Part shown: piece by piece, positions 42,914 through 44,398 of the stretch | Numbering within the stretch: the first letter of the stretch is position 1 | Layout: each line of letters starts with the position of its first letter | Assembly (NCBI GenBank): GCA_937124965.1 | Contig: CAKZLB010000072.1 | Location: 1-60,515 of the forward strand | Origin: an uncultured Bacteroidota bacterium | GTDB lineage: Bacteria; Bacteroidota; Bacteroidia; NS11-12g; UBA9320 | Length of the DNA: 60,515 bases | Direction: 5' to 3' | Program-made: the position numbers and the translations under genes | The notes under the pieces: generated by a model | Database searches by the model: none | The model's input: the letters and a program-made list of their open reading frames with translations, nothing else | Told to the model about the DNA's origin: nothing

Positions 42914-44398
42914 TTAAACAACGTCTAAACGACTTTTTATAAACGACTCTGCATTTCGAATATGAGTGTTTTGTTTTTCAGTCGACATTTTATTAAGCGA
43001 AAAAACTAACATAGATGTTCTCGGATTCGAACGAAAAAAGTCTTGATGCTTTATGACAAAATTCCAAAATAGACCATCCCAAACTTGCTCCCAATCTCCT
43101 TTAGGATAATTACTCATTTTTTTAATATAATTTGATCCTCCAATATACGGTTTAGTTGCGAACGTGCCTCCATCGGCAAACAGACACATAACATATACAT
43201 TTGGAACCATGACCCAATCGTAAGCATCAATAAACAGCTCCATAAACCAGCGGTAAACCTCATCTGGATCAAATTCACAAAGAAGCATGAAGTTTCCGAG
43301 GATCATTAGTCTTTCTATATGATTACAATAGCTTGTTTGAAGCACTTTTTTAATCGTTTGATCAATTGGTTCAATACCGGTGGTTCCATCATAAAAGGAT
43401 TTTGGAATTTTGCGATCAAACCCCCAGAAGTTCCTAGTTCTTGAGAATCTGCCTTTGCAAACATACATCCCACGGATAAATTCACGCCAGCCAATTATTT
43501 GACGAATGAGCCCCTCTGTTGAGTTAATCGGAATATTCTCTTGTTTAGAAAATGAAAGAGCACGGTTTATTACTTCTGATGGCTCAATAAGTCCTACATT
43601 CAGAAGCGGTGAAAGAACACTATGGTTAAGGATTGAAGATTCTTTTACAATTGCATCTTCATATATTCCGAAGTCATTAAAGCGATTAGTTAAGAATTGT
43701 TCAAGCCAATCAGTAGATTCTTGATGTGTAACGGGGTAAAGTCTTTCTGTTGAGATGCTTCCAGGATTTTCTGGAAAATTACTCATGGTGTAATTAACTG
43801 CCTCGTCCCATACCTCCGAACTATTCGGAAAATGTACTGCTGGCGGCAATTTGTTTTTTGGATATTTTTTTCTGTTTTCATAATCATACGTCCATTTACC
43901 GCCCACAGGATTTTGTTCCTCATCAATTAAAATTCCTAGCTTTTTGCGTTGCTGTTTGTAAAAGGCCGTTTGAAAAAAGGACTTTTTATCTTTTCTGAAA
44001 AAGTTAGATAAGTCTTCTTTGCTGTTTATGAACTGAGGGTTTGTATGGGTAATGATTTTACATGAGTCGGAGAGTGAGCTAACGCGCTGCTCTAGCCAAT
44101 CATCACAGGGCTCTATCAGGTTTATAGTGTGAATCTTTTTGCTCACAATCTCTTCACTGAAGCATCTTATATCAGATAGTGGATTATCAGAATCAACATA
44201 ATGTACCGTTACGTTGAGGTCTTGAAGATGATTTTGGTACGCTTTCATGGACGCCCGATGAAAAGCAATTTTCTGTTTGTGAAATTTGAACTGCTTAAAA
44301 AAGAGGAACTCTTCAATAAGGTAAATCTCATTACTGTTTTCTAAGAGCGGACTATGCAGAAAAAGCTGATGAGGAAAAATAAGATTAATGGCATGCAT
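42914..44398 (-). CDS. Cryptochrome/photolyase-related protein lacking Fe-S ligands
   Basis: A 494-residue member of the PhrB/FeS-BCP family: IREFI-type region GWREFIRGMYVCKGR, TSYCNHIERLMILGNFMLL, DWVMVPNVYVMCLFADGG and YIGGSNYIKKMSNYPKGDWE. Cysteines that bind 4Fe-4S in PhrB (equivalents of C350, C438, C441, C454) are replaced (IEPIDQTI, NYPKGDWEQ, QVWDGLFWN). It probably still binds flavin and may repair UV lesions or sense light. The gap 42600-42913 holds nothing I can support. Confidence 0.85.
   Translation of the reverse strand: MHAINLIFPHQLFLHSPLLENSNEIYLIEEFLFFKQFKFHKQKIAFHRASMKAYQNHLQDLNVTVHYVDSDNPLSDIRCFSEEIVSKKIHTINLIEPCDDWLEQRVSSLSDSCKIITHTNPQFINSKEDLSNFFRKDKKSFFQTAFYKQQRKKLGILIDEEQNPVGGKWTYDYENRKKYPKNKLPPAVHFPNSSEVWDEAVNYTMSNFPENPGSISTERLYPVTHQESTDWLEQFLTNRFNDFGIYEDAIVKESSILNHSVLSPLLNVGLIEPSEVINRALSFSKQENIPINSTEGLIRQIIGWREFIRGMYVCKGRFSRTRNFWGFDRKIPKSFYDGTTGIEPIDQTIKKVLQTSYCNHIERLMILGNFMLLCEFDPDEVYRWFMELFIDAYDWVMVPNVYVMCLFADGGTFATKPYIGGSNYIKKMSNYPKGDWEQVWDGLFWNFVIKHQDFFRSNPRTSMLVFSLNKMSTEKQNTHIRNAESFIKSRLDVV

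Follow-up and report, generated by a model that had tools for sequence, protein, structure and literature searches.

A cluster-free member of the prokaryotic (6-4) photolyase family in an uncultured Bacteroidota bacterium

In PMC9178010, four cysteines are reported for all of the 110 prokaryotic 6-4 photolyases compared except the 20 members of subgroup M. That subgroup includes PromaPL of Prochlorococcus, which is described there as a prokaryotic 6-4 photolyase without the cluster. Because some members hold no cluster, the name "prokaryotic 6-4 photolyases" was proposed in the same source for the whole group, with the FeS-BCPs as a subtype. Several orthologs that miss the cysteines are also mentioned in PMC12082625, where the part played by the 4Fe-4S cluster in prokaryotic (6-4) photolyases is still called elusive. 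Cysteine mutants of PhrB were insoluble or not expressed, and under conditions that remove the cluster PhrB is poorly expressed or insoluble (PMC4619345). Mutants of PhrB further showed that repair needs H366 and Y424 and that Y430 is required for efficient repair (PMC4619345). Two Asp residues are indicated for Mg2+ in PMC12082625, using the numbering of the Caulobacter enzyme, which is one lower than that of PhrB.

A stretch of 60,515 nucleotides from an uncultured Bacteroidota bacterium (the window) encodes a protein of this family without the ligand cysteines. The initial annotation had presented this as a puzzle, given that the family is named for a 4Fe-4S cluster. The ligands are missing here as it said, and the naming question was already resolved in print (PMC9178010).

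Family membership and the missing cluster ligands

The gene, its domain match, and the two sites that replace the cluster ligands are located as follows.

42914..44398, minus strand: ORF of 494 aa for a putative cluster-free prokaryotic (6-4) photolyase (ORF and translation, PF04244 match, PhrB fold)
43748..44383, minus strand: DPRP domain match, residues 6-217 (Pfam)
43367..43369, minus strand: P344, which aligns with cluster ligand C350 (P in 142/146 cluster-free rows, C in all 68 cluster-bearing rows)
43064..43108, minus strand: short tryptophan loop, residues 431-445, replacing the three-cysteine cluster loop (alignment of 214 rows)

The ORF lies exactly where the initial annotation had placed it and is full-length, with no internal stops in the 494-aa frame. 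The protein matches PF04244 (DPRP) with an E-value of 1.8e-54 and a score of 185.4 bits against the Pfam cut-off of 22.1. The photolyase FAD domain is also matched, below its Pfam cut-off, and the Pfam scan detected no domains beyond these two. Eight distinct sequences of solved structures are matched at E ≤0.001, all of them prokaryotic (6-4) photolyases or CryB. The top match is 8IJY (E 4.2e-77), and the match to PhrB has an E-value of 2.1e-71. The AlphaFold2 model, obtained with 45 aligned sequences, has a mean pLDDT of 87.3 and a pTM of 0.89. Comparison of this model with PhrB (4DJA) gives a VIA Z of 45.9 and an rmsd of 2.2 over 483 residues at 28% identity. The ten top fold matches (Z 39.8-45.9) all come from the prokaryotic (6-4) photolyase family, and the first match outside it is to class II CPD photolyases at a Z of 28.5. 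Loci L006 and L011, which stop near the end of the given stretch, were omitted from the fold alignment. The window protein belongs to the prokaryotic (6-4) photolyase (DPRP) family, and the earlier family assignment is borne out by the PF04244 match and the PhrB-like fold. The dN/dS ratio of the gene is 0.076-0.085 against four relatives, and it is therefore under strong purifying selection.

The alignment contains 214 rows: the window protein, PhrB, and the products of 212 loci. Eighty of the loci are the best 80 of at least 576 confirmed matches found using the window protein. Since loci were picked by similarity to this protein, the 146 cluster-free and 68 cluster-bearing rows do not represent a natural ratio. 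Three copies of the window gene (L001, L090, and L109) and three split or cut genes (L030, L169, and L218) were removed before the cysteine census, and no match to the family was obtained for L107, L108, L110, and L222. Some genomes are counted twice among the 214 rows; L059 and L179, for example, look like one contig.

Mapping onto PhrB confirmed that the Fe-S ligand cysteines are absent from the window protein. P344, P432, and Q438 occupy the positions of PhrB ligands C350, C438, and C454, respectively, and C441 faces an alignment gap where a stretch of about 10 residues is missing. The claim that all four ligand positions are occupied by other residues thus holds for three of them, and the fourth was deleted together with the loop. 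The four cysteines that ligate the 4Fe-4S cluster and define an FeS-BCP are not found in this protein. Across the alignment the ligand cysteines are present on an all-or-none basis: 68 sequences have all four, 146 have none, and none of the 214 has one to three. The Y424-W445 spacing (window numbering) is 31 residues in all 68 cluster-bearing rows and 21-24 residues in all 146 cluster-free rows. The shortened loop carries the signature W-x3-WD in the cluster-free rows, with W436 in 143 of 146, W440 in 143 of 146, and D441 in 138 of 146.

The initial annotation had pointed to cysteines elsewhere near the cluster as grounds for revision. The window protein has seven cysteines (residues 79, 98, 113, 314, 358, 374, and 405), none of them in the cluster loop. 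Only C358 (105/146) and C374 (136/146) are present in at least half of the cluster-free rows, and in 126 of those 146 rows there is no cysteine at all between PhrB positions 418 and 480. C358 (43325-43327) and C374 (43277-43279) are typical of the cluster-free branch and appear in 0 of the 68 cluster-bearing rows; one of the two sits two residues from the catalytic His.

Repair residues, antenna pocket, and electron chain

The positions that correspond to functional residues of PhrB and to the antenna pocket are listed below.

43883..43885, minus strand: D172, equivalent to PhrB D179, putative Mg2+ site (D in 214/214)
43655..43657, minus strand: D248, equivalent to PhrB D254, putative Mg2+ site (D in 214/214)
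43319..43321, minus strand: H360, equivalent to PhrB His366, the presumed proton donor to the lesion (H in 214/214)
43145..43147, minus strand: Y418, equivalent to PhrB Tyr424, which PhrB requires for lesion binding (Y in 214/214)
43127..43129, minus strand: Y424, equivalent to PhrB Tyr430 (Y in 214/214)
44363..44377, minus strand: F8-P9-H10-Q11-L12 in the antenna pocket, L-G-D-Q-L in cluster-bearing relatives (alignment)
44297..44299, minus strand: F34, aligned with PhrB Glu37 in the antenna ceiling (F in 146/146 cluster-free rows, E in 65/68 cluster-bearing rows)

PhrB residues R183 and L370 are likewise identical in all 214 rows. The lesion-contact pair, H366/L370 in PhrB, is H360/L364 in the window protein, and the combination is therefore His/Leu as in PhrB. 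It is not the Asn/Met pair of CPD photolyases (Asn341/Met345 in the E. coli enzyme). The CPD photolyase encoded in the same genome has Asn/Met at these positions, as do five of five rows of the SPL family. A second photolyase (PHR) found beside cluster-free genes, as at L052:2368-3873, has Phe/Ala at this pair in four of four rows.

The antenna pocket differs consistently between the two forms. Within the motif, the cluster-free rows have P in 143 of 146 and H in 135 of 146, and all 67 cluster-bearing rows counted have G and D; the PhrB row begins at residue 33 and was excluded from this count. The antenna-site residues described as most conserved in the FeS-BCPs are Leu8, Gly9, Asp10, Glu33, Lys47, and Met55 in PhrB (PMC9178010). 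The Glu, Lys, and Met of this set are kept in the window protein, and the other three are F8, P9, and H10. For subgroup M, the same source describes a complex pattern at the antenna site. The FO synthase subunit model TIGR03551 has no match in the window's genome, and of 14 genomes examined with the control, 3 exceeded the cut-off. The lack of a match argues against an 8-HDF antenna.

Further residues are also altered. PhrB W342, an electron transmitter in that enzyme, is replaced by Y336 (Y in 124 of 146 cluster-free rows), PhrB Y391 by F385 (F in 146 of 146), and PhrB H365 by N359 (N in 20 of 146). In PMC9178010, the full electron chain is reported to be absent from all members in the subgroups Chl, HC, Ac, and M.

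Descent, co-occurrence, and gene neighbors

A tree was constructed from 68 chosen rows (36 of the 146 cluster-free and 32 of the 68 cluster-bearing), with the trait columns omitted, and the cluster trait changes once on this tree with an SH-aLRT support of 100. A second tree contained 17 cluster-free and 17 cluster-bearing rows together with an outgroup of five SPL sequences, four PHR sequences, and the CPD photolyase of this genome. The cluster-free rows form one branch (support of 100) that is nested among the cluster-bearing rows (88 at the nesting fork), and the branch that carries the outgroup is at least 4.8 changes per column long. Because of this nesting a single loss of the cluster is favored, with the direction of the change only suggested by the trees. 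The reverse nesting, with cluster-free rows enclosing the cluster-bearing rows and an outgroup branch support of 71, was obtained with a wrong outgroup row from L107 and was discarded.

The record titles for the best 80 of at least 576 confirmed matches are mostly from Bacteroidota, with single titles from Kiritimatiellales, Akkermansiaceae, and one further Verrucomicrobia bin. The window's own family holds both forms, as L082, L083, and L084 have the cysteines. Relatives of the window protein on plasmids number 87 records, each at less than 60% identity. No match to the protein was found at an E-value of 1e-5 among 50,697 phage records. The IMG/VR contig L226:3001-4314 encodes a distant relative (35%), and in its last 130 residues the loop is of the short type and a CxxC pair is absent.

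Co-occurrence was determined for 295 genomes of the window's class, 113 of which have a DPRP match. These are divided into 59 cluster-bearing, 50 cluster-free, and four untyped genomes (G220, G289, G195, and G208). Both forms appear together in 0 of the 109 typed genomes, against 10 expected if they were independent and kinship between genomes is ignored. Three genomes have two match rows: those of G224 and G299 are neighboring pieces of one gene, and the second row of G165 is a remnant with four in-frame stops, outside the typed set. A PF00875 photolyase is present in 49 of the 50 cluster-free and 59 of the 59 cluster-bearing genomes, compared with 94 of the 182 genomes that have no DPRP match. 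The cluster-free enzyme therefore accompanies such a photolyase and is not a stand-in for it.

Among the cluster-free loci with at least 3.8 kb of upstream sequence, 56 of 66 have a same-strand neighbor of a photorepair type within 4 kb. The families found in those 66 loci are SPL (41), PHR (31), DUF2805 (30), flavin reductase (24), and SDR (5, a label given only from the look of its sequence). The cluster-bearing Bacteroidota loci have shorter flanks, and one of the same families is present within 2.5 kb in 34 of 62; the corresponding value for cluster-free loci with similarly short flanks is 44 of 65. An SPL gene is seldom found next to the cluster-bearing form (1 of 62, versus 16 of 65 for the cluster-free form). 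The models used for these counts were built from the best 80 of at least 576 match loci with a 60-bit floor. Since no typed genome holds both forms and their neighbor types are common to both, the cluster-free and cluster-bearing forms largely occupy the same slot.

A same-strand cluster recurs near cluster-free genes and consists of a short photolyase-like gene, a second photolyase, a DUF2805 (TIGR03643) gene, and a flavin reductase gene. The photolyase/DUF2805/flavin reductase cluster is seen at L014:2065-3862, L049, L019, L064, and other loci. No paper on a photolyase with DUF2805, TIGR03643, or DUF2256 was found in one open-licence library. The window gene itself is flanked by genes for an FGE-sulfatase-domain protein and a hexapeptide protein, and no photorepair protein was found among the six neighboring proteins scanned. 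The SPL gene of this genome is located on contig C43, apart from the window gene; in the sister genome (G001, locus L088), unlike the window, SPL precedes the photolyase gene.

Proposed function and comparison with known systems

The window gene very probably encodes a working, light-dependent (6-4) photolyase of the cluster-free branch. On excitation by blue light, the reduced FAD of the helical domain would donate an electron to the (6-4) photoproduct in the active site. By analogy with PhrB and its Caulobacter relative, H360 would give a proton, Y418 and Y424 would hold the lesion, and D172 and D248 would bind Mg2+. The role of the cluster is presumed to be structural and not catalytic. Because the cysteine mutants of PhrB are insoluble or unexpressed, loss of the cluster must be compensated, and in the window protein, where the ligand loop is about 10 residues shorter, the packing role of the cluster appears to have been taken over by the tryptophan-rich loop (W436, W440, and W445).

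Other readings of the gene were weighed against this assignment. The absence of four ligands might mark a pseudogene in decay whose cofactor site is gone, a reading given almost no weight since the frame is full-length, the dN/dS is low, and the same short loop is found in 145 relatives; the absence of the cluster is neither decay nor a one-off. It is also scarcely credible that other residues keep a cluster in place. Many rows of the branch, and none of the cluster-bearing rows, have C358 and C374, but two conserved cysteines do not provide four ligands, and most cluster-free rows have no cysteine in the region of the loop. A cryptochrome-like light sensor without repair activity is improbable. 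The family member CryB of Rhodobacter has regulatory effects (PMC9178010), and the antenna pocket and the photoreduction residue W342 are altered here; against this, every repair residue tested is invariant across the 214 rows, the gene often adjoins photolyase genes in relatives, and the Pfam scan gave no additional domain.

The remaining alternative is that the enzyme without the cluster acts as a CPD photolyase, a role proposed for the cluster-free Phr2 of most picocyanobacteria (PMC9426592). This is judged quite improbable for the window protein, which has the H360/L364 pair of PhrB in a genome whose own CPD photolyase has Asn/Met. In addition, nearly all cluster-free genomes already hold a PF00875 photolyase, and the cluster-free PromaPL is termed a 6-4 photolyase in PMC9178010. 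The suggestion of the initial annotation of a possibly altered repair or sensing role is unsupported, because the repair residues are invariant and the gene is under purifying selection; the His/Leu pair, the failure of the two forms to share a typed genome, and their common neighbors also speak against it. The assignment as a (6-4) photolyase is thus preferred.

More tentatively, both accessory cofactors may have been swapped together, with the tryptophan loop exchanged for the cluster, which PhrB needs for folding, and a pocket of F-P-H-Q-L and F34 that holds either no antenna or one other than DMRL and 8-HDF. If so, this swap would amount to a natural cluster-removal experiment for a cofactor of elusive function. 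A natural cluster-free relative that retains the tested repair residues would allow the contribution of the cluster to be measured directly, and could show whether cluster-free members act on (6-4) photoproducts or, as also proposed, on CPDs. Nothing on the tryptophan loop or the gene cluster of this branch was found in one open-licence library, which is no proof of absence.

The closest described systems compare with the window protein as follows. The best sequence match among the solved structures is SePhrB of Synechococcus elongatus (8IJY), which differs in having the cluster and an 8-HDF antenna (PMC9178010), whereas the window's genome has no match to TIGR03551. PhrB of Agrobacterium fabrum, an FeS-BCP, shares the whole-length fold and the repair and Mg2+ residues. 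Relative to PhrB, the window protein lacks the cluster ligands, has a loop ten residues shorter, carries Y in place of W342, and in the antenna pocket has P/H and F in place of G/D and Glu37. Subgroup M and PromaPL, compared here by their published descriptions, belong to the same family and lack the four ligand cysteines (PMC9178010, PMC9426592). The rows analyzed here are mainly from Bacteroidota and have a uniform antenna motif, in contrast to the pattern called complex for subgroup M (PMC9178010). As in that subgroup, the four cysteines are absent and the branch is separate from the FeS-BCPs on the tree, here nested among the cluster-bearing rows. The window protein is a further member of the cluster-free subtype already described.
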